Below, one piece after another: positions 3,654-51,476 of a DNA stretch of 51,476 bases (the first letter of the stretch is position 1; the number at the start of each line of letters is the position of its first letter). This stretch comes from a virus: positions 1 through 51,476 of IMG/VR virus record IMGVR_UViG_3300046703_000050. One strand, given 5' to 3'. The translations under genes and the position numbers were made by a program. The notes beneath the pieces are model-generated. The model ran no database searches and had not been told where the DNA came from. It was given only the letters and a program-made list of their open reading frames with translations.

Positions 3654-3761
3654 TCAGTGGACGACTTAGAAGAGCGATTCCTGGACCGCGACGAGCGTGT
3701 ATACTACGAATCGCTAGACGAAGAACAACCACAATTTCAATTCAGGAGACAAGGACAGGAA

Positions 3762-4862
3762 ATGGGAACGAAGCCGAAGGTGACCAAGCAAGTGCAGGTC
3801 GAGAAGAAAGCAGTGAAGAAGGTCGAGAAGTCCGCAAAGAAGAAACCAGCGACAGCGGCGAAGAAGCCAACGTCAACGCCGACACAGAAACCAGCAGCGA
3901 AGTTAGCGCTGGTGCCCGCGTCGATCATCCAGATCCCGATCAAGGATATCGTCGCCGACGCGGAGGCGAACGTCCGGTACTTCAAGGAAGATCCGAAGCT
4001 GATCGAGCATCTCGCGGAGAGCATTAAGCGGGACGGGGTGATCGAGCCGCTAATCGTGCGGGCGACCGAGGAACTCGACACATATGGTCTCATTGCCGGG
4101 TATCGGCGACTCAAAGCGGCGAAGGAAGCAGGGTTGAAGGTGGTCCCGTGCATCGTACGAGACGGTGTCGATGACCAGATGCAGCTCAGGATATCGCTCA
4201 CCGAGAACATCCAACGCAAGAACCTCAGCCCGATGGAGTTCGCCATGAACTGCAAGCGGGTGCGGGGAGAGTTTGCGTGGGAGGGCGAGACGAATACGAA
4301 GAAGGTCGCCCAGTTTATGGGGGTAAGTGCGGCCACCATTACGCAGATGGAGAAGTTACTGGTGTTGAAGCCGGAACACCAGCGGATGATCCATGAGCGG
4401 GCGCTGGGAGCGCAGGCGGGGCAGGACATCGCCGATATCGTGAAGGAGTTCGGTGCCGAGAAGGCCGCGAAGGTGCTGGCGAAGGCGGTCGAGATCGAGG
4501 AAGAAGAGCAGGAACGGAAAGCAACCAAGAAGTCTGCGAAGCAGGGGAAGGTGAAGCCCAGCGAGGCGGGACGGGCGGCACGGGCGGAGAAGAAGGAACG
4601 TGAAGGGCGCGAGGAGAAGGACGACAAAGGCGGCAAGAAGGGCGCGGTGGTCAGCCAACGCAGTGTGCGTAAGGCCGCGAAGTCCGAGAAGGCCGTCATC
4701 AAGCATGCCCGCAACATCAAGGACCTGATGGAGATCTTCGAGGTCTGCTTGGACGGGGACAGCGAGCCGTTGAAGAAAGTGGCGCAGGCCGTGATTGACT
4801 GGCAGAAGGGGGAGATCGGCGACGAGGAACTGATTAAGGTCCTCGGCGTAACTGTGAAGTAA
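3762..4862 (+). CDS. parB: ParB/Spo0J-like partition or nucleoid-occlusion protein
   Basis: 366 residues from ATG 3762. A Lys-rich disordered N-terminus leads into the ParB/Srx nuclease-like domain, with IPIKDIVAD, ANVRYF, HLAESIKRDGVIEPLIV and the CTP-binding motif AGYRRLKAAKEAG. The TENIQRKNLSPMEFA signature and a KorB/ParB helix-turn-helix (FMGVSAATITQMEKLL) follow, then a charged tail. ParB proteins bind parS and load as CTP-dependent clamps. No ParA is seen in the window, so it may act in transcription or replication rather than segregation. The frame is open back to GTG 3657, but the AAGGACAGGAA leader before 3762 matches the leaders of two other genes here, so the shorter start is preferred. 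Confidence 0.85.
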   Translation: MGTKPKVTKQVQVEKKAVKKVEKSAKKKPATAAKKPTSTPTQKPAAKLALVPASIIQIPIKDIVADAEANVRYFKEDPKLIEHLAESIKRDGVIEPLIVRATEELDTYGLIAGYRRLKAAKEAGLKVVPCIVRDGVDDQMQLRISLTENIQRKNLSPMEFAMNCKRVRGEFAWEGETNTKKVAQFMGVSAATITQMEKLLVLKPEHQRMIHERALGAQAGQDIADIVKEFGAEKAAKVLAKAVEIEEEEQERKATKKSAKQGKVKPSEAGRAARAEKKEREGREEKDDKGGKKGAVVSQRSVRKAAKSEKAVIKHARNIKDLMEIFEVCLDGDSEPLKKVAQAVIDWQKGEIGDEELIKVLGVTVK

Positions 4863-24705: not shown

Positions 24706-25036
24706 TCTCACCCCCTTTGGATGCTCCCAGCAGGGTATCCTGCGCGATAACTCCGGAAGCCGCTGCCTGCACGGTGCGGGCGAATCCGACGTAGGCGCAG
24801 TTCCCGCACTTAGGCTCTGCTATTTTCTCCCAGACAAGGCGTGCCAGTACAATTCTGGAGTATGTCCCCTGACCAATCTTCAACTTGGAATAGATCCTCG
24901 ACAGGAATACCCTCACCGTCAATGGTGACAGGTGCAACTCCACGGCAATTGCCTTGTTGTGCCACCCCAGGCCCACCAGTTTCGCCATTTGCAACTCACG
25001 CGGCGTCAGGTGGCCGTCGATTTCCGTTGGAATCAT
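24683..25036 (-). CDS. LuxR/FixJ-type helix-turn-helix protein
   Basis: 117 residues from ATG at 25036, overlapping the previous stop as ATGA. Residues 9-70 match a GerE/LuxR DNA-binding domain: LTPRELQMAKLVGLGWHNKA, then IAVELHLSPLTVRVFLSRIYSKL. A Cys pair CGNC follows. There is no receiver or autoinducer domain. A LuxR-type regulator buried between tail-associated and lysis genes could time late expression or act on host genes. Confidence 0.75.
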   Translation of the reverse strand: MIPTEIDGHLTPRELQMAKLVGLGWHNKAIAVELHLSPLTVRVFLSRIYSKLKIGQGTYSRIVLARLVWEKIAEPKCGNCAYVGFARTVQAAASGVIAQDTLLGASKGGENERRCSN

Positions 25037-25749
25037 GGACGGACAGGTGAGCACGGATACCCTCCGTCCGCAGGCGGGGCGGGCACGCTGGCGAAGGTCG
25101 CATACGTCGATGCCCGGTTCGCATCCGTGACGGTGACCATGACGACGAACTCCCCCATCTCGGTCGCCGTGCCGCTGAGAATCCCCGTGCTGCTGAGGGC
25201 AAGGCCGGCCGGCAGCTTGCCACCCGTGATGGCCCACGTGAATGGCGCGTGCCCACCGCTGGCGACCAGCGACTGCGAGTAGGGCACACCGATGGTCGCA
25301 TTCGGAAGCGCGGCGCCGACGATGATCGGGTTCGTGTACCACCCAAAGGGCACGCCTGCCCACACGCGGTTTCCCTGTTCGTTCTCGACGCACGCGAACA
25401 AGCCCTGCCGGCCGAGCCAGATGGAGTTCAGGCCCTGATCGGCGCAGGACGATCCGATAACGGGTTCTTCCGTGGTCAGCACTGGCGTCACCCGATGGAG
25501 GATTGTGTTGGGTGTCGGGAGCCCCGTCCCCTCGATCAACCTTGACCACATCTCTGCCGGCGTCAGCCAAAGATAGAGCCCTCTCGCCCCTGTCTTGGGA
25601 TCGGTTGGACCTTGCGAGTAGTCCCACCAGACACCACGCAATCGAGAAGTTGGGCCGGGGACAATGGGTGCCATTGCGGCGGATAACAGCAGTACGCAGG
25701 CCGAGAGCATCACGGCGATCGTCAACCTTCTAAGCCCAAGCGCACTCAC
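25033..25749 (-). CDS. Exported protein with a putative Ig (He_PIG) domain
   Basis: 238 residues. An N-terminal hydrophobic segment (about 10-27) looks like a signal peptide or anchor. Residues about 143-215 match the He_PIG fold (ALPNATIGVPYSQSL, GKLPAGLALSSTGILSGT, GEFVVMVTVTDA). Ig-like domains on phages commonly stick weakly to cell-surface glycans. An export signal on such a protein is unusual in a tail module and parallels the DGR target gene. Confidence 0.65.
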   Translation of the reverse strand: MSALGLRRLTIAVMLSACVLLLSAAMAPIVPGPTSRLRGVWWDYSQGPTDPKTGARGLYLWLTPAEMWSRLIEGTGLPTPNTILHRVTPVLTTEEPVIGSSCADQGLNSIWLGRQGLFACVENEQGNRVWAGVPFGWYTNPIIVGAALPNATIGVPYSQSLVASGGHAPFTWAITGGKLPAGLALSSTGILSGTATEMGEFVVMVTVTDANRASTYATFASVPAPPADGGYPCSPVRP

Positions 25750-38759: not shown

Positions 38760-39058
38760 TAGTTGTTCTTCTCCAACTGTACGCGGACACCACCACCACC
38801 GTCAGGATCTACGTCGATGATGTTATAGACAACACCGTTCCGTGTGATGGTGTCGCCGCGTGCAATGCCGGGTACATCGACGAGCATCGCCCACAGGTAG
38901 AAGTAGTTTGGGTTCGGCGTAGATTCCCCGACAAAGGGAGTTTGTGACGTGATGACGGTGATGGGAACAGACGATCCTGACCAGTCCACGTCTTCGCCGA
39001 ACGTAGCGAGTTGCGAAGCGTTAGCACCCGCCATCAGGTTTTCCCATGCCGTTGGCAT
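38759..39058 (-). CDS. Head-tail joining protein (gpFII-like)
   Basis: 99 residues. The sequence FGEDVDW, ARGDTITRNGVVYNIIDVDPDGGGGVRVQL matches the small beta-barrel head-tail joining proteins of the gpFII/Phage_attach type. The stop overlaps the next ATG by one base. Confidence 0.7.
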   Translation of the reverse strand: MPTAWENLMAGANASQLATFGEDVDWSGSSVPITVITSQTPFVGESTPNPNYFYLWAMLVDVPGIARGDTITRNGVVYNIIDVDPDGGGGVRVQLEKNN

Positions 39059-39783
39059 CAGTTCACCTCTCCAGGCTTCTGATAGTACTTGGTATAAAGA
39101 TTTGCATCATCCCCGACCCACGATCTTAGCATGGTGAGGTCGGGGTCGGCGAACCACCCACGGGTCTGCTCGCGGTGTGCCTGGGTAATGCCGGGACGAC
39201 CGGGTAATCCTTTAATCCCGATGCAGGAGCCGGAGAATGAATGGATAACTGCTCCGGGGTTTCCAGCAACACGCCGCCATAGGGGGATGTCGAGGATGCC
39301 GCCGTGAGGGTAGAGGTTGCAGATGTCGGTGAGCATGTGCAGGTGCGAGGCACGAATCCCGGTCGCACAGAGCGATGAGTGCCGTGGGTTGTGAAAGATC
39401 TTGTACTGGCGGGTTGGGGGGTGGTAGTAGTGCGAATTGCCTTCGCCGACGAGGAAGGTGCGGGGGGAGTGGAAGCGCCGGGACATAAGGGACAGGTAGT
39501 CGGGACGAAAATAATCATCGTCTTCGACCAATAGTACGATGTCGTACTTCACCTTGGAGATAGCGAGTAAGATATTGCGGGACTGCGTGTTATGACCAGG
39601 AGTCCAAGATGGGAGCGGATTGATAAGGTCTTGTCCCATCGTCATGTTGGTCTGTGGCATGCAGTCGTCTATCACCAACCACTGAGTAGGTCCAGTGTAG
39701 TCTTGTCGGTTGATGAAATACTCGCACAGCGCGAACGCCTCTGGTCGTCCCCCGGTCGGCGTTATCAGTGTGATTCCCGGCAT
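39058..39783 (-). CDS. Glycosyltransferase-like protein
   Basis: 241 residues from ATG at 39783 (5 nt after the previous stop; the frame is open to 39945 but lies inside the upstream gene). N-terminal MPGITLITPTGGRPEAFAL, a metal-type EDDD motif (87-90) and a C-terminal CIGIKGLPGRPGI segment. The same blocks occur in the last third of the adjacent large glycosyltransferase, so these are paralogues. Confidence 0.75.
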   Translation of the reverse strand: MPGITLITPTGGRPEAFALCEYFINRQDYTGPTQWLVIDDCMPQTNMTMGQDLINPLPSWTPGHNTQSRNILLAISKVKYDIVLLVEDDDYFRPDYLSLMSRRFHSPRTFLVGEGNSHYYHPPTRQYKIFHNPRHSSLCATGIRASHLHMLTDICNLYPHGGILDIPLWRRVAGNPGAVIHSFSGSCIGIKGLPGRPGITQAHREQTRGWFADPDLTMLRSWVGDDANLYTKYYQKPGEVN

Positions 39784-39788
39784 CCTAT

Positions 39789-42140
39789 CTATCCCTGTGC
39801 ATGCACACGCGGAAGGAATCCGCGCTGTAAGTTGACTGGCCGTCTCGATCTTGAGAACGACACTGTCGATTGCGATGGTGCTACCGGGGCACTCGGAACT
39901 CTCCCAGTGTACTTCTCGTACAGTGCGGCGTCGTCTCCGATCCAAGACCGCAGCACCGACAGATCAGGGTCTAGTTTCCAGGGAAGATCATGCTGGTGTC
40001 CATGCCCAATCCCCGGTCGTCCTGGCATTCCCTTGATGCCGATGCACAAGTGGGGACCGGCGAATAACCCACGAGAGTATGCTACTCTCCGCCAGAGTGC
40101 TATGTCGATGTATTCGGTCGTGGTCTGCTCACACACCCACTGTAGGTCGGGGAGCAGGGACGCACGGATGCCGGTCGCGCAGAGCGATGCGTGACGGTGG
40201 TTGGGGCACTGGTAGTATGCGCGGTAGGCGACGTTGTAGTAGAGCGCATTAGGCTGACCCACTATTGGGTTGGCGTCGAGCCGCGCACTCATCTCTTGCA
40301 GGTAGGACGGTGACAGGTGGTCGTCGTCCTCCAGTATCAGGATCTTATCGTAAGTGACAAAGGGAAGTGCGGCGAGCAGGTTGCGCCGCTGGGTGCTTTT
40401 GCTGCCCGCTGACCACCGGGGTTCTGGGCGTATCACCGTCTGCCCCATCGTGCATGGGGTCGCAGGATCTACGTCGTCCACACACAGCCATTGAATCGCA
40501 CCAGTGTACGTTTGCTGTTTGATGTATCGCTCCAGCAACGCGAAGGACTCAGGACGCCCGCCAGTCGGAGTGATGAGTGTGATTCCACCGGGTAAGTAGG
40601 TTCCTGGGATCGTCACAGGCTGCGCGGCGTGCGCGTGCTTCGCATTTAATACCCTGCCCATCTCCCGCATAGATCTGTCGCGGGCTTGGTCCGACCCCAT
40701 CGCACGGATGAAGGTGGCGGATACCGGCTGGGACTGATGTCCGTGATGGATCTGGACGAATGGCGTTACTGCTAAACGGAAGTTGGCGGCGTGTGCTCGC
40801 TGGCAGTAGTCCACATCGTCAGATCCGTAACCTGTGAAGCGTTCGTCCATAAGACCAATGCGGTCGATGACGGAGCGTTTGATGTAGACGCACACGAAGC
40901 ACAGGTACTCGTTCGTATAGAGCAGGCCGGATTTAGTCGGGGGCTGCGCGATACTGCGGGTGGGACGGGTATGACGACGCTGACTTGAGAAACTAATACC
41001 GCGCGACCCACCGGACACACTAGCAGGGACGGAGTTCGTCGCTCGTTGAATCACCGTACCTACGAGCCCTCCGCTAATCTGAGGGGACAGGATGCCGACA
41101 GTTGGGTCGGAGTAGGCGGCAGCGTGGAGTTGTTCGACAGTACTGGGGGTCAGGAATCGCCCGTCATCCCCCAGGAAGAGTATGTCGTGTGCCGGGTTGG
41201 ACGCTTGGATACCAGCGTTGACGTTGCGCGAGAACACAAATGGGGACTGGCCGGTTAGGATCTTCCAGCCACGGGCACGCAGGGATGGGAGATCATACTC
41301 AGACTCGTCGGCGGCTGCGTCCAGCACCAGGATCTTCTCTGCTATCCCAGAGTCAATCGCGTGCTGCTCGATAGAAGCTGCCAGTGGCATGAAGATATCG
41401 GCGTAACGTGACAGAACGACCAGCGTGACCTTGGGTGCCTGCCAGTCGCACCAGTTCCACAGGTAGGACTCATCCATCCTGTAGATGTGCATGTTGCCGA
41501 CATCCCGTTGCCAGCCCTTCGCTTTGTAGGACTCAGATAGTGAGTACCAAGGGTCGAAGGGGATACGGTCCAGCAGGAAGACCGGGAGAGAGGGTTTGAT
41601 CCAACCGATCGTCAGCTTGTGCTTACGGCACCAGTCGTCCAGCCCGTGATAGACGCCACGAGCTACCGGGTAGTCCCCATGTAAGAAGATTGAACGCCGA
41701 ATGATAGCGAGACCGTCACCGGCTGGAGCGGGCTGGTAGGAATGCGGCAGGGGACCGGACAGGTTCCAGATGTTCTCCAGGCAGAGCATCGGCAGAGTGG
41801 GGTTGCGCTGCATGACGCCGAGACCGATGTCGAGCCAGTTCGGCGGATACATCGCGTCGTTGTCGATCGTGGCTAGGAGGTCGGCGGTGGAGCGGCGGAA
41901 GAAATCGCTGCGGGCGGTAAGGCCGGAACCAAAGCTGGTTTGCCGGAGTTCGGTGCCTAGCTCAGTGGCTTGTTGCTGGAGGAATTCCAGTGTGCCATCG
42001 GTGGAGCCGTCGTCGTAGATCACGAAGTTGGTGACGCGGGACCAGTCGGTGTTGGCACGCAGAGTACGCAGGGATTCCTTCGTAAACGCTAGTCGGTTCT
42101 TGGCGAAGTAAGCAAGGTCGAGAGTAGGAACTGATGTCAC
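39789..42140 (-). CDS. Three-domain glycosyltransferase
   Basis: 783 residues from GTG at 42140, one base overlapping the methyltransferase stop, with GGAGG about 10 nt upstream. Domain 1 is GT2-like with YDDGSTDGTLEFL. Domain 2 (about 270-500) is a second GT-A fold with LVLDAAADE, LFLGDDGRFL and GYGSDDVDYCQRA. Domain 3 (about 540-760) is a paralogue of the next gene (GGITLITPTGGRPESFAL, EDDD, IGIKGMPGRPGI). Multi-domain GT2 proteins build oligosaccharides on lipids or proteins. Here the likely substrates are phage virion proteins or host envelope glycans. Confidence 0.75.
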   Translation of the reverse strand: MTSVPTLDLAYFAKNRLAFTKESLRTLRANTDWSRVTNFVIYDDGSTDGTLEFLQQQATELGTELRQTSFGSGLTARSDFFRRSTADLLATIDNDAMYPPNWLDIGLGVMQRNPTLPMLCLENIWNLSGPLPHSYQPAPAGDGLAIIRRSIFLHGDYPVARGVYHGLDDWCRKHKLTIGWIKPSLPVFLLDRIPFDPWYSLSESYKAKGWQRDVGNMHIYRMDESYLWNWCDWQAPKVTLVVLSRYADIFMPLAASIEQHAIDSGIAEKILVLDAAADESEYDLPSLRARGWKILTGQSPFVFSRNVNAGIQASNPAHDILFLGDDGRFLTPSTVEQLHAAAYSDPTVGILSPQISGGLVGTVIQRATNSVPASVSGGSRGISFSSQRRHTRPTRSIAQPPTKSGLLYTNEYLCFVCVYIKRSVIDRIGLMDERFTGYGSDDVDYCQRAHAANFRLAVTPFVQIHHGHQSQPVSATFIRAMGSDQARDRSMREMGRVLNAKHAHAAQPVTIPGTYLPGGITLITPTGGRPESFALLERYIKQQTYTGAIQWLCVDDVDPATPCTMGQTVIRPEPRWSAGSKSTQRRNLLAALPFVTYDKILILEDDDHLSPSYLQEMSARLDANPIVGQPNALYYNVAYRAYYQCPNHRHASLCATGIRASLLPDLQWVCEQTTTEYIDIALWRRVAYSRGLFAGPHLCIGIKGMPGRPGIGHGHQHDLPWKLDPDLSVLRSWIGDDAALYEKYTGRVPSAPVAPSQSTVSFSRSRRPVNLQRGFLPRVHAQG

Positions 42141-42589
42141 TATTTCACAGCCTCCAGTACGATCCGCAGTTTTAGGACTTGATCCACAAGTACCTGCTCG
42201 ATTTCGGAGATGATGTTGAACGCACAACGGATTCCATAGGCAGCGGCGAACCGATTACGGTGTCCGTTCCCGTGCGTGTAGTACATAAAGCTATTGTGAT
42301 TCCAAAACGACACATGCGTCGGATCTTGCCATGCCCCACGCCCGTCCGTTGTCGGCACCATGATATCGATCTTGCCGCCAGGGACCAGGACTCTCCAGGC
42401 TTCGTTCATCGAGTGGATTGGGGAGTGGAGATGCTCGAAGATATCAAGGGCGACGATGTAATCGACTGAACTATCTGCCCAAGGCCATCGTTCGTTCAGA
42501 TCGGCGAGTTGGTCGCAGGGTGGTACGATATCGACGTTGATCCACGGTGGCGGCATGATGGCGTCGCTACACCCTAGATTCAACTGCAT
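42140..42589 (-). CDS. SAM-dependent methyltransferase
   Basis: 149 residues. Motif I-like LNLGCS, acidic INVDI, and the core VDYIVALDIFEHL then SMNEAWRVLVPGGKI match the small class I Methyltransf_11 family. Overlaps the radical SAM gene by 10 bp. Probably modifies sugars or glycan intermediates together with the neighbours. Confidence 0.75.
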   Translation of the reverse strand: MQLNLGCSDAIMPPPWINVDIVPPCDQLADLNERWPWADSSVDYIVALDIFEHLHSPIHSMNEAWRVLVPGGKIDIMVPTTDGRGAWQDPTHVSFWNHNSFMYYTHGNGHRNRFAAAYGIRCAFNIISEIEQVLVDQVLKLRIVLEAVK

Positions 42590-43842
42590 GACGCGGGTCC
42601 CTGGTAGGTGCTGCCTAATCGCAATGCGCCGCGTACCTCTGCTTCAAGCTGCTCGGGAAGCGCCGCGAGTTCATCGTACGACAGACCAGAGGTCCGTACG
42701 GAATGCGGTAAGTGAGTACCGGCAGCGCCACGGAACGTCATCGCCTCGTGCTCGTAATCGACGTTGAATTCGATGTCGTGACCGTTGCGATGGTCGTGGA
42801 TGAACGATCCTGGGAATGGTATAAACATTGTCACTGTCAGGTCATCGACGGAGTTGTCGATCAGCCAGCGGCGGGTGTCGGCGATGGTGGCGTGGGATTC
42901 GCCAGGGAGACCGGCGATGACGAAGGCTTTGAACTTGATACCGGCGTCTCGGCAGATAGCGCGGGCACGAGCGTTGATATCGGGGGTAGTTCCTTTATTG
43001 ACGCGGAGAAGGATGTCTGGATTGCCCGATTCGACGCCGACGCAGAGCCAGGAACAACCAGCGGAGGCTAGAGCAGAGGCTTGTGCGGCGGTCAGTAAGT
43101 CCGCACGGACGTTAGCCTTGAAGCGGACGTTCTCAGGGGCTAGGCGTTCACACAGCGCAATCAGCCTGTCGTTGTGCAGGTTCATTTCGTCGTCGTGAAA
43201 GACGAACGACGACCAACCGTCGTCTTTGAGTTGCCGAATCTCCTCGATGACATTGTCGAGGTGGCGGGCGCGGACACGACGGGAGCCGGACCAGCGTGAG
43301 CAGAACGAACACGAAAACGGACACCCACGCTGCGAGACTAAAGAGGTCGCTGGTTGCCCGTCCAACGTGCATTTATACTCGTGGATAGGAACTAGGTGAC
43401 GAGACGGTATCGGAATGCGATCGACATCGACATCCATCGGATACAGTGCAGCGGTCTTATGCTGAAAGGTTGCACTCACCAAATTGCAGATCGCGTTCTC
43501 CCCGTCGCCGCTCACAAACCAGTCGGCACCAAGCTTGGAGAAGTCCATCGGGCGTACCGAGATATGCGGACCACCAACGACGATAGGAACACTTGGATAG
43601 CCACGCTTGCACTCCGCAATGATCCGCCGTGCTGCTGGGTAGAGCGCCGTCGTCAGCCCGATGCCGATCATTGCGGGGTCGTGACCCCGGATAGTGGTGC
43701 CGGGAAGGTTTAGATCGACGACGTGCGGACGATGCCCAGCGACTTCAAGCGCAGCAGCCAAGTAGAGCAGTCCCAGCGGCGGTACGAACGCCGGTTCTGC
43801 CAGGAAGTCGGCGCAAGGGTTGATAAGTAGGACTTGAGACAT
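42580..43842 (-). CDS. B12-binding radical SAM enzyme
   Basis: 420 residues. An N-terminal cobalamin-binding-like domain (residues 1-135: LLINPCADF, PPLGLLYLAAAL, VVGGPH) is followed by the 4Fe-4S motif Cys174-x3-Cys178-x2-Cys181 (RGCPFSCSFC). A later GVESGNPDILLRVNKG and FIAGLPGES-like segment complete the radical SAM barrel. Such enzymes methylate or rearrange unreactive carbons. In this cluster it may create an unusual sugar or peptidoglycan modification. Confidence 0.85.
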   Translation of the reverse strand: MSQVLLINPCADFLAEPAFVPPLGLLYLAAALEVAGHRPHVVDLNLPGTTIRGHDPAMIGIGLTTALYPAARRIIAECKRGYPSVPIVVGGPHISVRPMDFSKLGADWFVSGDGENAICNLVSATFQHKTAALYPMDVDVDRIPIPSRHLVPIHEYKCTLDGQPATSLVSQRGCPFSCSFCSRWSGSRRVRARHLDNVIEEIRQLKDDGWSSFVFHDDEMNLHNDRLIALCERLAPENVRFKANVRADLLTAAQASALASAGCSWLCVGVESGNPDILLRVNKGTTPDINARARAICRDAGIKFKAFVIAGLPGESHATIADTRRWLIDNSVDDLTVTMFIPFPGSFIHDHRNGHDIEFNVDYEHEAMTFRGAAGTHLPHSVRTSGLSYDELAALPEQLEAEVRGALRLGSTYQGPASCS

Positions 43843-43845
43843 CGG

Positions 43846-44838
43846 TTATTTCCAGGATTCCGGTAGATGCTTGGCGATCTCGATACCACAGAACGGCACG
43901 GTCGGACGGGGTCCATGCTCTCGTGCCCACGCAGCCATACGTGCGAGCCCGTCCTGGAGATTGACGACGGGTCGGCAGTTGAACACCAACCCAGCCTTGG
44001 TATGGTCCGCATACACCTGCTGGACTTCGTTGCGTGCGGGCAAGTTGACAATCTTCGGCGATGCCCCCATCGCCTTGCCGACCACCCACGCGAGTTCGTT
44101 GACCGAGTACGGTACGCTAGCTCCTAGGTTGAAGGTCTGACAGCGAGCGGCATCCACAAAAGGGGACGCGGCGATGATTGGCGCGACATCGTCGATGTGG
44201 GTGAACGCGCGCCGCTGTTCACCATCTCCGAATACTGTGAGCGGCTTTCCTTGGAGAAGCTGGTTCATGAAGATGCCGATTACGTTGCGGTACTTATCGC
44301 CAATGTTCTGACGTTCGCCGTAGACGTTATGAGGACGAAAGATAACGTAGTCTAAATTGAACATCTTACTGGAGATTCGGAGTTCCTGCTCAACCGTGAG
44401 CTTGGCAATACCGTAGGGATCGACGGGGATGGTCGGAGTCTCCTCGGTTACCGGAAGGTACGGTGGTTCACCGTACACCGCTATCGACGACGTGAACACG
44501 AAGCACTTCACCTGATGGTTGATGGCGGTGTTTATCAGGTTCACGCTGCCGATCAGATTATTGGTGTAGTTGAACCGTTTTATGAAGTGGCTCAGCCCTT
44601 CGGCAGCGTACGCAGCTAAGTGATAGACGTAGTCGATCCGGTAGGTCTCGAATACCGCTTCTACTAGCTTGTGGTCGGCGATTGAACCTTGGACGAACTT
44701 TGCTCCGGCCGGTACGTTCTCCTCAAACCCTCCACTCAAGTCATCCAGTACGATGACTGCGTGACCAGCACGCACAAGATGTTCGGCGACATGCGACCCG
44801 ATGAATCCGGCGCCACCTGTGACTAGGCTAGACGGCAT
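43846..44838 (-). CDS. NAD-dependent sugar epimerase/dehydratase
   Basis: 330 residues. The Rossmann motif GGAGFIGSH (8-16), SSIAVYGEPPYLPVTEE and the catalytic Tyr142-x3-Lys146 (PYGIAK) identify an extended SDR of the UDP-sugar 4-epimerase/4,6-dehydratase class. The substrate cannot be read from sequence. It overlaps the DUF115-like gene by 11 bp. Confidence 0.85.
   Translation of the reverse strand: MPSSLVTGGAGFIGSHVAEHLVRAGHAVIVLDDLSGGFEENVPAGAKFVQGSIADHKLVEAVFETYRIDYVYHLAAYAAEGLSHFIKRFNYTNNLIGSVNLINTAINHQVKCFVFTSSIAVYGEPPYLPVTEETPTIPVDPYGIAKLTVEQELRISSKMFNLDYVIFRPHNVYGERQNIGDKYRNVIGIFMNQLLQGKPLTVFGDGEQRRAFTHIDDVAPIIAASPFVDAARCQTFNLGASVPYSVNELAWVVGKAMGASPKIVNLPARNEVQQVYADHTKAGLVFNCRPVVNLQDGLARMAAWAREHGPRPTVPFCGIEIAKHLPESWK
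44116..44126. repeat. CTAGCTCCTAG, degenerate relative of the palindrome
   Basis: One mismatch from CTAGGNCCTAG, inside the epimerase gene. A second such variant lies at 35594-35604, where it doubles as ribosome site for the tape measure gene. Confidence 0.4.
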
Positions 44839-45475
44839 GTGAGTAGCTCATGGTAGGTAGGAGTATATCAGAAAGTTTGGCAAACGGGAAACACCGGATT
44901 AAGCTATCGGGGTTGCAGTTGATGACGGAGACACCATGAGAGGCAAGGGGCTCTACAAGGGAAGCAAACCGTGGCACCCAGTTGTTACGCTTTTGTGCGT
45001 CGGCGAACGCAAGGGACTTTGGTCGTTGTGCCGGGATGGTTTCCTGTCGGTAACAGTGGTCGCCGTGCATGTCGTAGCCTAGTAGGACGATGCGACTAGC
45101 ACCTAGATGAAACGCCAGTCCGATTGCCTGGTAGCCAGAATTTCCGCCGTGCGCCAACGCCGTAGGGTCCAACGACAGTCCATGCAGCCCACCATGCCGA
45201 ACGCGATGTACGCCGTCCTCGCCCACGTTCATGCTCACCATCCACAGCCCTTCAAACTTAGCCAATACCCGTTCACGATGCTTTGTCCACCACAGGGCGT
45301 CGCTGAAGTATAGGATATCGGCGAACGGACAGCGTAGATACCAGTCGTTGATGGCGATGATACGACCGTGACCGGATAGGACGTTGGGATCGAAGTCAGT
45401 AAGGGAGGCACCACCAGCGAGCAAGAAGAACTTCTCACCAGGGTAGGCTCTCGGGATGGAGAAGAACTCACCCAT
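44828..45475 (-). CDS. DUF115-like sugar/glycan protein
   Basis: 215 residues. The opening FFLLAGGASLTDFD with AINDWYLRCPFADILYFSD and WWTKHRE is shared by phage and bacterial proteins of the DUF115/MptE-like Rossmann family found in motility-glycosylation and surface-modification clusters. Start chosen at 45475, where it abuts the membrane protein gene. Enzymatic role unproven. Confidence 0.65.
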   Translation of the reverse strand: MGEFFSIPRAYPGEKFFLLAGGASLTDFDPNVLSGHGRIIAINDWYLRCPFADILYFSDALWWTKHRERVLAKFEGLWMVSMNVGEDGVHRVRHGGLHGLSLDPTALAHGGNSGYQAIGLAFHLGASRIVLLGYDMHGDHCYRQETIPAQRPKSLAFADAQKRNNWVPRFASLVEPLASHGVSVINCNPDSLIRCFPFAKLSDILLPTMSYSHAV

Positions 45476-46746: not shown

Positions 46747-46780
46747 TTGCGCCTTGCGCCCGGCTTCCGACATTACTTCG

Positions 46781-47047
46781 ATGCGTTCTGGGAGCGTTGG
46801 ACATCCCCAGGACACCCGGAAGATCCTCCGAGTCTTGGCGAAGCGGGCCGGCGTGAAGGGACGCATCTGGCCGCACCTCCTGCGCCACTCCCTGGCGACG
46901 GCGATGTTGGACCGCGGCGCTTTGCCGCAAACGATCCAGGCCGTCCTCGGCCACACTTTCATCTCGACGACGATGGAGTATTACCTCCACCCGTCCAAGA
47001 GGGGCGTCAGGGCCGACTATCATCGGTGCGTTCCTTCGTTCATCTGA
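46781..47047 (+). pseudogene. C-terminal fragment of a tyrosine recombinase (integrase remnant)
   Basis: 88 residues on the plus strand, opposite to all neighbours. ILRVLAKRAGV, WPHLLRHSLATAML (His-x2-Arg), QTIQAVLGHTFISTTMEYY and a final Tyr give the C-terminal half of the catalytic domain: HxxR, LGH and the nucleophilic Tyr are visible, but the first catalytic Arg, the Lys hairpin and the DNA-binding domain are missing. The frame upstream is open but reads the 18-bp duplication and shows no integrase similarity. No other gene is apparent in 46606-47079. Confidence 0.65.
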
Positions 47048-47079: not shown

Positions 47080-47409
47080 CTACCCCACCAACTTCTCAAC
47101 AGGTGCCACAGTGACTTTCGACTCCAGCACGGCAACGCGATCTTTGAGCGGCACCACGGGGATTAACCCTGCGGCCTTCCCTGCCTTCTGAAGCGTCTTG
47201 GTCTTCGGGTCAACCGTATACGCCTTCTGGTTCGCCGTGAGACTCACCAGGTCTGCGTCCGACAACTCGCCCACATCAATGTAGGCGAGGTTGGACTTCT
47301 GCCCTTGCGGTGTCGCCAAGTAGGCGTCCATCTCTGCGGGGCGCAAGTCTTGGGCGATGTTTTGGATCTGTCCCTCAAAGCCTGGGTTGGTTCGGTAAAT
47401 TATCAACAT
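47080..47409 (-). CDS. Small protein coupled to the RT gene
   Basis: 109 residues from ATG at 47409 with GGAGG 7 nt upstream. The start lies inside the last codons of the RT, so translation is coupled. It has a short beta start (MLIIYRTNPG), Asp/Glu/Lys-rich helices and ends with VPLKDRVAVLESKVTVAPVEK, a possible coiled coil. I recognise no family. Coupling to the RT makes it a candidate DGR accessory protein, or simply the next phage gene. Confidence 0.6.
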   Translation of the reverse strand: MLIIYRTNPGFEGQIQNIAQDLRPAEMDAYLATPQGQKSNLAYIDVGELSDADLVSLTANQKAYTVDPKTKTLQKAGKAAGLIPVVPLKDRVAVLESKVTVAPVEKLVG

Positions 47410-48452
47410 AGGAATCCTCCAAGAATCGGTTTTGCCTCGCGCCATAACGCCACGCGGAGCCGGTATGAATCGGCGTGACTGAGATGCTGGAACCAACTTC
47501 TCAGCGACTCTATGGCCTTTCCACCGGGCAACTCCTCGCGCTCCACTGCCGCCATTAAGCCGCGCATTCGCCGCCTCCCAGCCACGACGTTCGGGCGCAA
47601 GATACGCCGGTGGCCGCACCAGACCTTATGGCCTAGGAACGGCACTCCGATGCGTGTGGGAAATACGCAGGTTTTGGGATTTGTCACGAGGCCCATTTCT
47701 TCAATGAAGCTGCGCAGGTTGTCCTCCCAGCCTTTGACGACGTTCTGCTTTGAACCGAGCAGCACCAGATCATCCATATACCGGGCGTAGTAGCGGCAGC
47801 GGAGAACGTGCTTGACGTGGTAATCGATTCGCGAGCCGACGATGTTGGCGAACCACTGGCTGGTCAGGTTGCCGATGGGTAGACCGCGCGGACCAAACCC
47901 GGCCGGGAAGATACTAGGGTCCGCCTGATAGCTGGTTAGAATGCGACGGCACAACTCCAGCGTTCTCGAATCCGCGATGCGCCACTCCAACTCCCGCATC
48001 ACCAAGCCGTGCGGGATCGAATCGAAGAACTTCCGCAAGTCGAGTTTCAGAATGTAGTTTGAACCCGGCCTGCGGAGAAACTGCGTCAGGCGGTCAATGG
48101 CCTTGTGTGTGCCCTTGCCAACGCGGCAGGCGTACGTGTCGTGAATGAATGTGTTCTCAAACAGCGGAGCGATCACAGAACAGAGCGACTGGTGGACGAT
48201 CCGATCCGAGAATGGGGCGATGCGGATGATGCGCTCTTTCGGTTCGTGAATAACCTTTTTCCGGTATGTACCGGGTTGCCACTCCATCGATTGAAGTTGG
48301 TCTCGCAAAGCGATCAGGTTCTCTCCGAGATTGCCAGTGAATGAAATCACATCGGGTCGGTTGCGCTTTCCTTTTGCCGCCCGATGATATGCTGCGTGTA
48401 GATTTGAGAACTCACAGATTTGATCGAACAAGTACTTATAGGTGTGGGGCAT
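47403..48452 (-). CDS. DGR reverse transcriptase
   Basis: 349 residues from ATG at 48452 (MPHTYKY). Fingers/palm motifs include LDLRKFF (137-143, catalytic Asp), the DGR-specific IGNLTSQ (193-199, replacing the QG-x3-SP of group II intron enzymes) and YMDD (225-228). The length is that of stand-alone DGR RTs, with no maturase or endonuclease domain. The same frame is open back through the template repeat to 48713, which would give a 436-residue protein. That extension is the template RNA, so the 48452 start is preferred. The enzyme copies TR RNA with errors at adenines. Confidence 0.95.
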   Translation of the reverse strand: MPHTYKYLFDQICEFSNLHAAYHRAAKGKRNRPDVISFTGNLGENLIALRDQLQSMEWQPGTYRKKVIHEPKERIIRIAPFSDRIVHQSLCSVIAPLFENTFIHDTYACRVGKGTHKAIDRLTQFLRRPGSNYILKLDLRKFFDSIPHGLVMRELEWRIADSRTLELCRRILTSYQADPSIFPAGFGPRGLPIGNLTSQWFANIVGSRIDYHVKHVLRCRYYARYMDDLVLLGSKQNVVKGWEDNLRSFIEEMGLVTNPKTCVFPTRIGVPFLGHKVWCGHRRILRPNVVAGRRRMRGLMAAVEREELPGGKAIESLRSWFQHLSHADSYRLRVALWREAKPILGGFLC

Positions 48453-48546
48453 GAGAGAATCCGGCTTCAGGTTTCGCGTTGCTACTCTCTGTCGCCGGTG
48501 TGTTTTATATTCGGCTCCCTCTCGGAAGCGCAGGATACAGGTGTGG

Positions 48547-48599
48547 TGTGCGCGCACTATGGCGGCGATTCGTAAATCGCGCGCTGCTACGGGCGCACA
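48547..48599 (-). ncRNA. Structured spacer of the template RNA
   Basis: Between the TR and the RT start, TGTGCGC (48547-48553) pairs with GCGCACA (48593-48599), and inside it GCGATT-CGTA-AATCGC (48565-48580) forms a tetraloop hairpin. In characterised DGRs a structured spacer downstream of TR primes cDNA synthesis and binds RT-Avd. This is the equivalent position. Confidence 0.55.
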
Positions 48600-48601
48600 A
48601 T

Positions 48602-48713
48602 TGGCCGAGCGGAACCCGATATTGTTATTCGCGTTTCCGGGCGAGTTGTTGGCGTTCGCGTTACGCACTCCTGCGTTCGAACCGTCGCTCCAGAGCCCGC
48701 CGACGATCAGCAT
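48602..48713 (-). repeat. DGR template repeat (TR)
   Basis: 112 bp that align without gaps to 49138-49249 (offset 536). In the coding sense it is rich in AAC/AAT codons (nine Asn codons and one Ile in the mutated stretch). Of 27 template adenines, 17 differ from VR, while only one of 85 non-adenine positions differs (48657, silent in the protein). Identity at the 5' 36 nt and at the 3' GGGTTCCGCTCGGCC block (IMH*-like) flanks the mutated core 48620-48677. Confidence 0.95.
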
Positions 48714-49081
48714 TTACCACCTTCATCCTTTTTCGCCGCGCTTATCCAGCCGCCAAGCTGCTTTCCCACCTCCGCCACGAGGCCAGAGGCGTGTTCGAAC
48801 TGCTTGATGCTGGTAAGGCGGAGCGAAACCGATAGCCGCAGGAGCATTCGCAGTCCATCTAACTCGGCGCTGGCGCGCTGTAGGTGCTGCAATCTCTGCT
48901 GGTGTGGACTCGCATAAGCCGAAACGCAGGCGCGAAACACACTGAGCATGCAGTCCAAAATCTGCTGCCCAAGCGTCGGGCGTACCCATTTGGGCCACTT
49001 GCCGACGTGCGGGGTGAGCCACAGGGCTAGGTTGTGTATCGCCTGGTAAATCGCCTGCGTTTCAAAAGCTTGGTATGCCAT
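48707..49081 (-). CDS. avd: Accessory variability determinant Avd
   Basis: 124 residues forming four helices. The C-terminal part (LDGLRMLLRLSVSLRLTSI, then ASGLVAEVGKQLGGWI) matches the Avd/bAvd family, small pentameric basic bundles that bind RT and template RNA and are required for mutagenic homing. The stop falls 7 bp inside the TR. No good Shine-Dalgarno precedes the ATG (only a T-run and CGGA), unlike most genes here. Position between VR and TR is classical. Confidence 0.9.
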   Translation of the reverse strand: MAYQAFETQAIYQAIHNLALWLTPHVGKWPKWVRPTLGQQILDCMLSVFRACVSAYASPHQQRLQHLQRASAELDGLRMLLRLSVSLRLTSIKQFEHASGLVAEVGKQLGGWISAAKKDEGGKC

Positions 49082-49132
49082 GAAAAAAAATCCGAAAAGC
49101 CAAAATCCAAAAGATCAAAAGTCAAAACCTTT
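49082..49132. repeat. T-rich degenerate repeat between VR gene and avd
   Basis: On the minus strand the 51-bp gap reads as near-repeats of GACTTTTGATC / GGATTTTGGCTTTT, ending in eight T residues before the avd ATG. It is low complexity and lies just behind the target stop codon, where other DGRs carry a DNA hairpin needed for homing. Confidence 0.5.
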
Positions 49133-50989
49133 TCACCTGGCCGAGCGGAACCCGAAACCGCTATACGCGTCCCCGGGCGAGTAGGAGGCGTAAGCGCCAC
49201 GCACCCCCGCGAGCGAACCGTCGCTCCAGAGCCCGCCGACGATCAGCATAGAAGGGAGACCATCCGTGTAGCCACCCGTTGCGGGGTTGTAGGATTGCCC
49301 ATAGAAGTTGTAGGCATTATCTCCTTGATATCCCCAAGCGACCCCTCCTCCTGGAACTAACGGCTGCAATCCCCCAAAAAACTGTGCGACAAACTCCCCG
49401 ACATTTCCCACTGCGTCGGCCAATCCAGAAGGACTATACCAAGAGCTACCCGCTGCCGCACCAACCCAACTAGAGGTACGAGGGCCAGTTCCGGTTAGGC
49501 ACCGCCCGCCCTGCGTCGGGTCGGCAGTGCAGGTTTGGGTAGCGTCGTCGCTCGATGCACCAGAATTCGAATTGCCGTTCTGAGAGGCAGGCGTCACTGA
49601 GCCGGGATTGTACGTCACCGCAGCCAGCCATTCTGCCCACGTAGGCAGGCGCAGGCCGGATTGTGGCAGCACGCTCATCACAGCCCAACCTTCCACGTCC
49701 CCCCACGGCACCACGCCGTAACGGGATGTCACGTATGCGCTAGTGCCAGCGGCAGTGGGCGAGGCGTCTTCGTGCGATGCCTCGTAGATCCCATATGCCA
49801 CCCCGCCTACGCGGACCATGCCCGGCAAGGGGATGCCAGCCGCTAGATCCTGCACGGCGCGAAACGGATAAGTGCGGTTGAGCTTGTCGTTGCTGGTTAC
49901 GCTGTACTGAAATATGTCGCCGGTCGCGTTTCGCGCATCCTGCGTCTTGCCGTTGTGGAAGTATCCCAGTAAGCAGGTGCTCGCTGCCGTGTACGTGGCA
50001 GGAACCAACCCGGTCGCGTGATACGTCGAGATAGCGGTGAGCTTGATCCCCGCAGCCGTCAGGAACGCCGCGTAGTCCACGCCTACTGTGCGGGTTCCGG
50101 TGTCTAGGGCGGTGAAGGTGACGTTGCCCCCGGCGTAGCTGATTGCCGTGCCTCCCGTGGTAATACAGCCGCCCACCGAAACGGAGATCGTATCCGCGTC
50201 CACCCAATCAAGCGTCAATCCGGTGCGGGAGCCGAGGAAGTTCGGAAAGCTGCCTCCGGTGGTCGGGTTAAGCACCGTAGTCCCTATCTTTAGGTTCTTG
50301 CCCGTGATCGTCACGTCGGTGGCGTCCTCAGTGATGGCCGGGGTGGGGTCGGTCGGAACCGCGCCGCCGTCCTTGAGCAGCTTCCCCGTGGTCTGGTCGA
50401 ATACCGCCAGATGGCCGTCCGTGGCCGAGGCGGGACCAACTACCCCGTTGGTTGCGGTATCGGCCACTGTGGCCGTTGCAACCTTCCCAGAGCGTGCCGC
50501 ACGATAGTTGGTTCCATTCGACCAAATCCGGGCCCCCTGTCCTGTCGTCAACACCAACGTGGCCGCGCCCTCAATCGTAGAGGTAGCAGGCGTGATCGTA
50601 GCCGTGCCGGCGCCGGAGTTGAGCACAGTCGTCTCCCAGCCGTCCGCAAACCCGGTCGAGCCAGCTTGTGCGATACTCACCGCGATGGACGAGCCGTTCG
50701 TAAGCGTGACCAGCTTGCCCCGGTCCCCCGTCAGGAGGGCGTACGACGTGCCGGTCTGTGGATTCGTCGCAACAAACCTGGAGAGGGTTGCCGTATCGGA
50801 CAGGTCCGTGCTCGCAGCATTCAGGCCGGGATCAGGATAGGTTCCAGACAACTTTCCACCGGCAGTGCCAGTAGGAGCACCACCTCCGCCTCCCGACACC
50901 GCTGGGATCGACGTTACCTGTCCCCGAACCACCGCCGCCTGAAACATCGTCAGCAGCAAAGCTATCCCAATCAGTTTGAAGTTCTTCAT
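49133..50989 (-). CDS. DGR target: secreted C-type-lectin/FGE-fold protein
   Basis: 618 residues. Residues 1-23 are a signal peptide (KNFKLIGIALLLTMFQAAVVRG). Then come a Gly-rich segment with GTAGGKLSGTYPDPGLNA (common in phage tail-fibre proteins), a long Thr/Ala beta region, and from about 395 a formylglycine-generating-enzyme-like CLec domain (RLPTWAEWLAAV, SWYSPSGLADAVGNVGEFVAQ, GGLWSDGS, GFRSAR). The VR fills the last 38 codons. Such targets present diversified loops for receptor binding. The signal peptide is unusual for a virion fibre and suggests display on the host surface or envelope passage. Start ATG has GGAG 8 nt upstream; palindrome copy 7 is in the leader. Confidence 0.9.
   Translation of the reverse strand: MKNFKLIGIALLLTMFQAAVVRGQVTSIPAVSGGGGGAPTGTAGGKLSGTYPDPGLNAASTDLSDTATLSRFVATNPQTGTSYALLTGDRGKLVTLTNGSSIAVSIAQAGSTGFADGWETTVLNSGAGTATITPATSTIEGAATLVLTTGQGARIWSNGTNYRAARSGKVATATVADTATNGVVGPASATDGHLAVFDQTTGKLLKDGGAVPTDPTPAITEDATDVTITGKNLKIGTTVLNPTTGGSFPNFLGSRTGLTLDWVDADTISVSVGGCITTGGTAISYAGGNVTFTALDTGTRTVGVDYAAFLTAAGIKLTAISTYHATGLVPATYTAASTCLLGYFHNGKTQDARNATGDIFQYSVTSNDKLNRTYPFRAVQDLAAGIPLPGMVRVGGVAYGIYEASHEDASPTAAGTSAYVTSRYGVVPWGDVEGWAVMSVLPQSGLRLPTWAEWLAAVTYNPGSVTPASQNGNSNSGASSDDATQTCTADPTQGGRCLTGTGPRTSSWVGAAAGSSWYSPSGLADAVGNVGEFVAQFFGGLQPLVPGGGVAWGYQGDNAYNFYGQSYNPATGGYTDGLPSMLIVGGLWSDGSLAGVRGAYASYSPGDAYSGFGFRSAR
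49138..49249 (-). repeat. DGR variable repeat (VR)
   Basis: The last 38 codons of the target gene. Relative to the TR, residues 593, 598, 600, 602, 603, 607, 609, 610, 611 and 612 are changed from Asn (nine) or Ile (one) to Leu, Gly, Tyr, Ser, Tyr, Asp, Tyr, Ser, Gly and Phe. The conserved GFRSA tail follows, as expected for a C-type-lectin scaffold. Confidence 0.95.
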
Positions 50990-51009
50990 GCTATTTCTCC
51001 GGCCTATGT

Positions 51010-51020
51010 CTAGGTCCTAG
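51010..51020. repeat. CTAGGNCCTAG palindrome, copy 7, in the DGR target leader
   Basis: CTAGGTCCTAG (plus strand), ending 20 nt before the target ATG in the direction of transcription, next to three tandem CCTCAG units (51021-51038). This matches the spacing of copy 3 before the nuclease gene. Confidence 0.75.
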
Positions 51021-51034
51021 CCTCAGCCTCAGCC

Positions 51035-51439
51035 TCAGCCTCCCAGCCGCTTCCCTCTCAGATACCCAACCACCGCCGTCCCGCTTGACGCCGACCAGCT
51101 AACCCCGTTTGGGCAATACCTGGACCCGAACTGGATCACATACGTCGTATGCGCGGCGATACTGACCGCCGACAGCACCTCGCGCGGCGTTGTCTGTTTA
51201 TCCTGGACCGTCACTGTCACAGTACCCGCTGAGATGTTAGTCAGCGTGATCTCGCTGAGCCAGATGTTCTTCGCATAGACGGTGGTATCGACTGCCGGGA
51301 TCAGTGCCGGGGTCGTCTCCTGAATGTTCAGGTTGGCCGGTGTCACCTCGAAGTTCGGGGCAGTGATGGTTGCCGAATGCAGCCAGCCGAAAGCCAACAG
51401 CAGAATCGCCACTACGAGAAGTTTGTTTGGGGAACGCAT
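51035..51439 (-). CDS. Small exported beta protein
   Basis: 134 residues from an ATG with AGGAGG about 8 nt upstream. A signal peptide (LLVVAILLLAFGWLHSA) is followed by a small beta-rich domain (LSEITLTNISAGTVTVTVQDK). The gene directly precedes the DGR target and shares its exported character, so the two products may act at the same location. No family recognised. Confidence 0.65.
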   Translation of the reverse strand: MRSPNKLLVVAILLLAFGWLHSATITAPNFEVTPANLNIQETTPALIPAVDTTVYAKNIWLSEITLTNISAGTVTVTVQDKQTTPREVLSAVSIAAHTTYVIQFGSRYCPNGVSWSASSGTAVVGYLRGKRLGG

Positions 51440-51476
51440 ACAGTTACCTCCTAGGATTCAAGATTGCAGGGTAAGA

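Follow-up and report, generated by a model that had tools for sequence, protein, structure and literature searches.

A BPP-1-type diversity-generating retroelement in a tailed phage, with an Mtd-like target that carries a predicted signal peptide

The stretch of DNA analysed here (the window, 51,476 nucleotides) is an IMG/VR virus contig from a tailed phage, and it contains a complete diversity-generating retroelement (DGR) on its minus strand at 47403–50989. As a DGR, this element adds one more example to a well-known kind. What is unusual is its target, in which an Mtd-like C-terminal half lies behind a predicted Sec signal peptide, unlike the phage targets described earlier (PMC6199706). 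The observations are best explained by a BPP-1-type DGR located among the clustered late (structural) genes of a tailed phage, the target of which would be a Sec-exported, diversified Mtd-like binding protein; we put the probability of this reading at roughly 0.7. The usual view of phage DGRs is that they allow host-range switching by varying a receptor-binding protein of the virion. If the reading proposed here is true, phages also diversify proteins that function outside the cell during infection or in the lysogenic state, or, alternatively, tailed phages are able to load appendage proteins from the periplasm.

The cassette and its pattern of variation

The order of elements in the cassette, target gene with variable repeat (VR), avd, template repeat (TR) and reverse transcriptase (RT), is that of mtd-avd-TR-brt in Bordetella phage BPP-1, and all four were located on the minus strand; a sequence-only reading of this DNA had described them in this order on one strand. 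The target gene (49133–50989) encodes 618 amino acids comprising a signal peptide, a unique N-terminal region, an Mtd-like second domain and an FGE/C-type-lectin-like C-terminal domain that contains VR. VR (49138–49249) covers the final 37 codons and terminates at the stop codon of the target, namely at the 3′ end of the gene. It is followed by avd (accessory variability determinant; 48707–49081, 124 amino acids), TR (48602–48713) and the RT gene (47403–48455, 350 amino acids). A small gene of unknown function (47080–47421, minus strand, 113 amino acids) comes after the RT gene, with the same placement in all three related phage contigs.

TR and VR align without gaps over 112 nucleotides, with changes at 17 of the 27 template adenines and at 1 of the 85 other bases (Fisher p = 2.5e-12), which reproduces the earlier counts exactly. 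Of the changed adenines, nine became G, six became T and two became C. Read in frame with the target, the TR core has nine AAC/AAT codons, every one of which is altered in VR (to L, G, Y, S, Y, D, Y, S and G), and an Ile codon is changed to F as well, whereas 36 nucleotides at the start and 18 at the end of the aligned region are unchanged. The sole difference at a base other than adenine is a G>T change (GCG>GCT) that is silent in an Ala codon. Together with the RT and Avd family matches given below, this pattern fully supports the earlier claim of adenine-directed mutagenic retrohoming in a complete phage DGR, and it also supports recent diversification of VR, as judged from the two repeats. 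A degenerate TR/VR pattern search of IMG/VR for a second VR belonging to the same TR gave no match, and the search for a hairpin downstream of VR found just a 6-bp pair with a 29-nt loop.

Mutagenic retrohoming is expected from the cassette anatomy and from what is known of BPP-1. By analogy with that phage, RT and Avd would use the TR region of the DGR RNA as a template for cDNA, placing random bases at template adenines, and the mutagenized cDNA would then replace VR, such that nine Asn codons and one Ile codon would be varied on the lectin-like C-terminus. It is very improbable that the DGR is degenerate and no longer working. One non-adenine difference between TR and VR, compared with none at many other loci, could be taken as a sign of decay, but this single off-target change is silent, so that the protein is unaltered by non-adenine changes, the ORFs are all intact, and the catalytic motifs are kept. 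Among the other loci compared, five (L064, L065, L068, L069 and L079) have the same target N-terminus and TR length with a varying number of changed adenines (17 to 21 of 26), and would lend themselves to demonstrating active diversification in a different phage. One TR was observed to serve two VR copies at L017 and at L024, and several closely spaced VR copies at L071.

DGR-class RTs carry IGxxxSQ where other RTs have QGxxxSP. The RT of the window was confirmed to contain IGNLTSQ and YMDD, both reported earlier, and it matched PF00078 (E 1.8e-19) and phrog_1423 (E 7e-124). Against solved structures, the top match was the BPP-1 RT (8ub7, E 8.5e-51), followed by group II intron RTs (4e-20) and retron RTs (2e-8); the group II model TIGR04416 gave 126.6 bits, far under its cut-off of 300. 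Thus, in the profile check that the sequence-only reading had proposed, DGR RT families were matched, and clustering with retrons or group II introns was not seen by sequence search. In an RT tree made up of DGR-type RTs only, with no outgroup, the window RT formed one clade with full support together with those of two other contigs, L002 and L003. Avd was found to match PF22296 (bAvd, E 6.6e-19), phrog_3206 (the PHROG Avd family, E 1.1e-24) and the NCBIfam equivalog NF033474 (82.4 bits, above the cut-off of 80).

The ORF of the RT stays open backwards across TR to 48713. However, differences between the window and L003 at the three codon positions are nearly even in the TR–RT interval (15/11/12 over the 147 nucleotides compared), unlike those in the RT gene (94/53/187). 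The RT therefore most likely starts at 48455 (MPHTYK...), judging from this comparison, and the long ORF across TR would be incidental. A coding fusion of TR to RT was considered and rejected, because spacer differences are flat by codon position and stops occur there in most relatives. The spacer itself (48456–48601, 146 nt, versus 144 nt in BPP-1) probably belongs to the DGR RNA. The predicted fold of TR plus spacer was no more stable than those of shuffled sequences (z −0.07), and an Rfam search gave no match.

An Mtd-like target behind a predicted signal peptide

Residues 264–354 of the target match Pfam PF21916 (mtd_2nd) at 30.6 bits, above the cut-off of 24.6. The C-terminal domain (429–617) matches PF03781 (FGE-sulfatase) at 19.7 bits, under the cut-off of 23.3, which is passed by the L003 target, unlike that of the window. 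When the target was compared by hhalign with a small Mtd family alignment, the VR domain and C-terminus were recovered (E 8.9e-6). Two structure models, one covering the whole target and one its C-terminal part, had very low confidence (mean pLDDT 33.0 and 30.5, respectively).

The N-terminus of the target, MKNFKLIGIALLLTMFQAAVVRG followed by Q (residues 1–23; 50921–50989), shows a full signal-peptide layout, with Lys, a hydrophobic core and V-R-G before the predicted cleavage site, and the start codon is preceded by a GGAG Shine-Dalgarno site. In the L003 target, the N-terminus is MRKLLLAIAVFAGLAFA followed by Q, ending in A-F-A, with AGGAGA upstream, and the sequence behind it is unrelated to that of the window. 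Immediately upstream of the target in both contigs lies a gene for another protein with its own signal peptide, a small protein at 51035–51439 (minus strand) in the window. The two targets have four cysteines each, two of which are at matching positions with a spacing of 64 residues, weakly suggestive of disulfides formed outside the cytoplasm. The target had no recognisable anchor, lipobox or outer-membrane domain.

To call signal peptides, a home-made heuristic was used, based on hydropathy, charge and cleavage site and calibrated on an E. coli region, in which it flagged five of six exported proteins and, among the other 33, just two membrane proteins. TR/VR pairs were detected at 67 compared loci, the window included, and targets could be scored at 59 of them; those left out were targets running off the locus and the unclear L071 and L072. 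By this heuristic, a signal peptide is predicted on the targets of the window and L003 only and on none of those at the 57 other viral DGR loci, which represent fewer than 57 independent cases because some are near duplicates. The signal-peptide lineage comprises two complete targets, since close relatives are few (two). Mtd-type tail receptor-binding targets of phage DGRs are expected to be homologous to Mtd, to lack a signal peptide, to assemble in the cytoplasm and to be part of the virion. In the window target, Mtd homology was found (PF21916 above cut-off; hhalign), and a signal peptide is predicted by the heuristic. A survey in 2018 described phage DGR proteins without detectable signal peptides (PMC6199706), and one in 2021 reported signal peptides for cellular DGR targets (PMC8144416). 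Among the titles found in the literature, none was relevant to the export of tail proteins or of phage DGR targets.

From its predicted signal peptide, the target would be made as a Sec precursor, have the signal peptide removed and work outside the cytoplasm. Against export, the family to which the Mtd-like domains belong is known for a protein of the tail-fibre tip that is put together in the cytoplasm. Accordingly, a conventional BPP-1-like alternative has to be weighed, in which the target is the receptor-binding protein at the tail-fibre tip and the hydrophobic N-terminus is a virion-attachment or coiled segment. The Mtd-like second domain with the VR domain behind it fits this alternative, as does the position of the target on the structural-gene strand, and most phage DGR targets are tail proteins (PMC8144416). 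It is nevertheless unlikely, given that the N-terminus has a full signal-peptide layout that is absent at the 57 other viral loci, that a signal peptide recurs in L003 with a different sequence behind it, and that the window cassette lies between cement-protein and head-tail genes, away from the tail-tip genes. The sequence-only reading had called the target a receptor-binding protein. Binding of a receptor is plausible from the Mtd second domain and the lectin-like VR domain, but assignment as a receptor-binding tail protein is not established, because the target starts with a predicted Sec signal peptide, which had been overlooked.

Genomic position and the probable site of action

Besides the DGR, the window encodes a family A DNA polymerase, a helicase, a uracil-DNA glycosylase, ParB, an endolysin, a head-tail attachment protein and a discoidin-domain protein. 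Its last 111 bases (51366–51476) recur unchanged as the opening 111 bases of contig 3300046703_000160 (8723 bp), which carries genes for a gpA-type terminase, a lambda-type portal, a capsid protein and a cement protein. The length and exactness of the overlap suggest that the two contigs are truly adjacent, in which case the window and L003 probably derive from one metagenome. Since it is exact and these genes are on the same strand, the upstream flank of the cassette appears to be phage structural DNA. The cassette would then lie between the capsid/cement and head-tail genes, on the structural-gene strand and not beside the tail-tip genes.

Could the DGR of another genome have been joined to the window phage by chimeric assembly? 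Such a join might leave marks like the opposite-strand integrase fragment next to the cassette and the break in similarity to L002 at 47176. However, the other end of the window overlaps the terminase/portal/capsid/cement contig by exactly 111 nucleotides on the same strand, and the related cassette of L003 is likewise in a tailed-phage contig, so that this explanation has very little probability. The fragment in question (46748–47047, plus strand) is the C-terminal part of a tyrosine recombinase (PF00589), preceded by a short CGTCGCCCCACTGAGGG tandem repeat, and it looks like a remnant at a recombination border.

Where would an exported target act? Most probably, it would be a diversified ligand-binding protein, either shown at the surface of the infected or lysogenic cell or released from it, or else taken up by virions only at lysis. 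Within the preferred reading of a Sec-exported target, a more specific proposal is that of an envelope or secreted protein outside the virion, such as a surface lectin that blocks superinfection or is shown by lysogens. Signal peptides on both the target and its upstream neighbour favour such a role. Exported phage proteins in such gene positions do exist, since Lom of phage lambda, which is comparable in placement, carries a signal peptide, resides in the outer membrane and is encoded between the tail-spike and tail-fibre genes (PMC12309495). The ParB gene and the integrase remnant also make a temperate or plasmid-like life possible. In contrast, the target gene lies within the late structural cluster on the same strand, the protein has none of the recognisable envelope features listed above, and no intact integrase was seen in the window. 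Taken as a proposal in its own right, a role outside the virion is tentative, its chances being somewhat short of even. Loading at lysis is ranked somewhat below a surface or secreted role outside the virion, and an ordinary tail tip that assembles in the cytoplasm is less likely.

Other features of these phages concern surface proteins and lifestyle. On the minus strand at 25033–25749, just after the tail-tip genes of the window, is a gene whose product has a putative Ig domain (He_PIG) and an N-terminus resembling a signal peptide. The L002 contig encodes two signal-peptide proteins after RT, one with a fibre-like C-terminal part; relatives of this fibre-like part in other phages showed no signal peptide where the N-terminus was available. 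In view of the 25033–25749 protein and the L002 signal-peptide proteins, export may extend to several surface proteins of these phages. The ParB-family protein is encoded at 3657–4862 (plus strand), with a small HTH-like protein before it, and the phage may persist as a plasmid-like prophage. Between the DGR and the head-tail genes (39058–45475, minus strand) lies an island of sugar or surface-modification genes, encoding two related glycosyltransferase-like proteins, a methyltransferase, a B12/radical SAM protein, an epimerase and an MptE-like protein.

Related cassettes and comparison with known systems

The RTs of L002 (a fragment starting inside RT) and L003 are 96% and 72% identical to that of the window, respectively. 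Searches for further relatives of the target and of the small genes found only L003, L002 and one overlapping contig, and searches of GTDB genomes for a host with the RT and target gave no relative. The three contigs convincingly share only the DGR cassette, the small gene that follows it and a small lipoprotein, and DNA similarity between the window and L002 ends abruptly at 47176. Because the cassette appears in otherwise unrelated phage backbones, modular exchange between phages is suggested by these comparisons. That a tailed-phage lineage diversifies a Sec-exported Mtd-like protein by means of a cassette found in otherwise unrelated phages, whether the protein belongs to the host envelope or surroundings or is a virion protein loaded at lysis, is held to be slightly more probable than the contrary.

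The closest DGR relative whose target is complete is L003 (IMG/VR contig 3300046703_000051), whose terminase, portal, prohead protease and capsid genes mark it as a tailed phage. Its Avd is 77% identical to that of the window, its TR is similar, and it shares both the signal peptide on an Mtd-like target and the signal-peptide protein upstream. The phage backbone is different, however; the L003 target has 707 amino acids, contains two inserted domains and differs in its N-terminal region, and its cassette follows a tail-tip gene, whereas that of the window is between the cement and head-tail genes. Likeness to BPP-1 extends from the gene order to the type of TR/VR pair, the RT and Avd families, the Mtd-like second domain and the VR domain. 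The differences are that the RTs are only 33% identical, that the window target is 618 rather than 381 amino acids long, with a signal peptide and an unrelated N-terminal region, and that the window cassette has a different setting, next to cement and head-tail genes. Cell-encoded DGRs with membrane-bound or secreted targets (PMC8144416) resemble that of the window in combining an N-terminal export signal with a C-terminal lectin-like VR domain, but the window DGR is encoded by a tailed phage that has genes for terminase, capsid and tail, and its target has the Mtd-like second domain. L003 also has a glycosyltransferase gene among the genes preceding its tail genes and, near its DGR and opposite to the late genes, a gene for a matrixin-type metalloprotease (PF00413; 762–1436 of that contig, minus strand).
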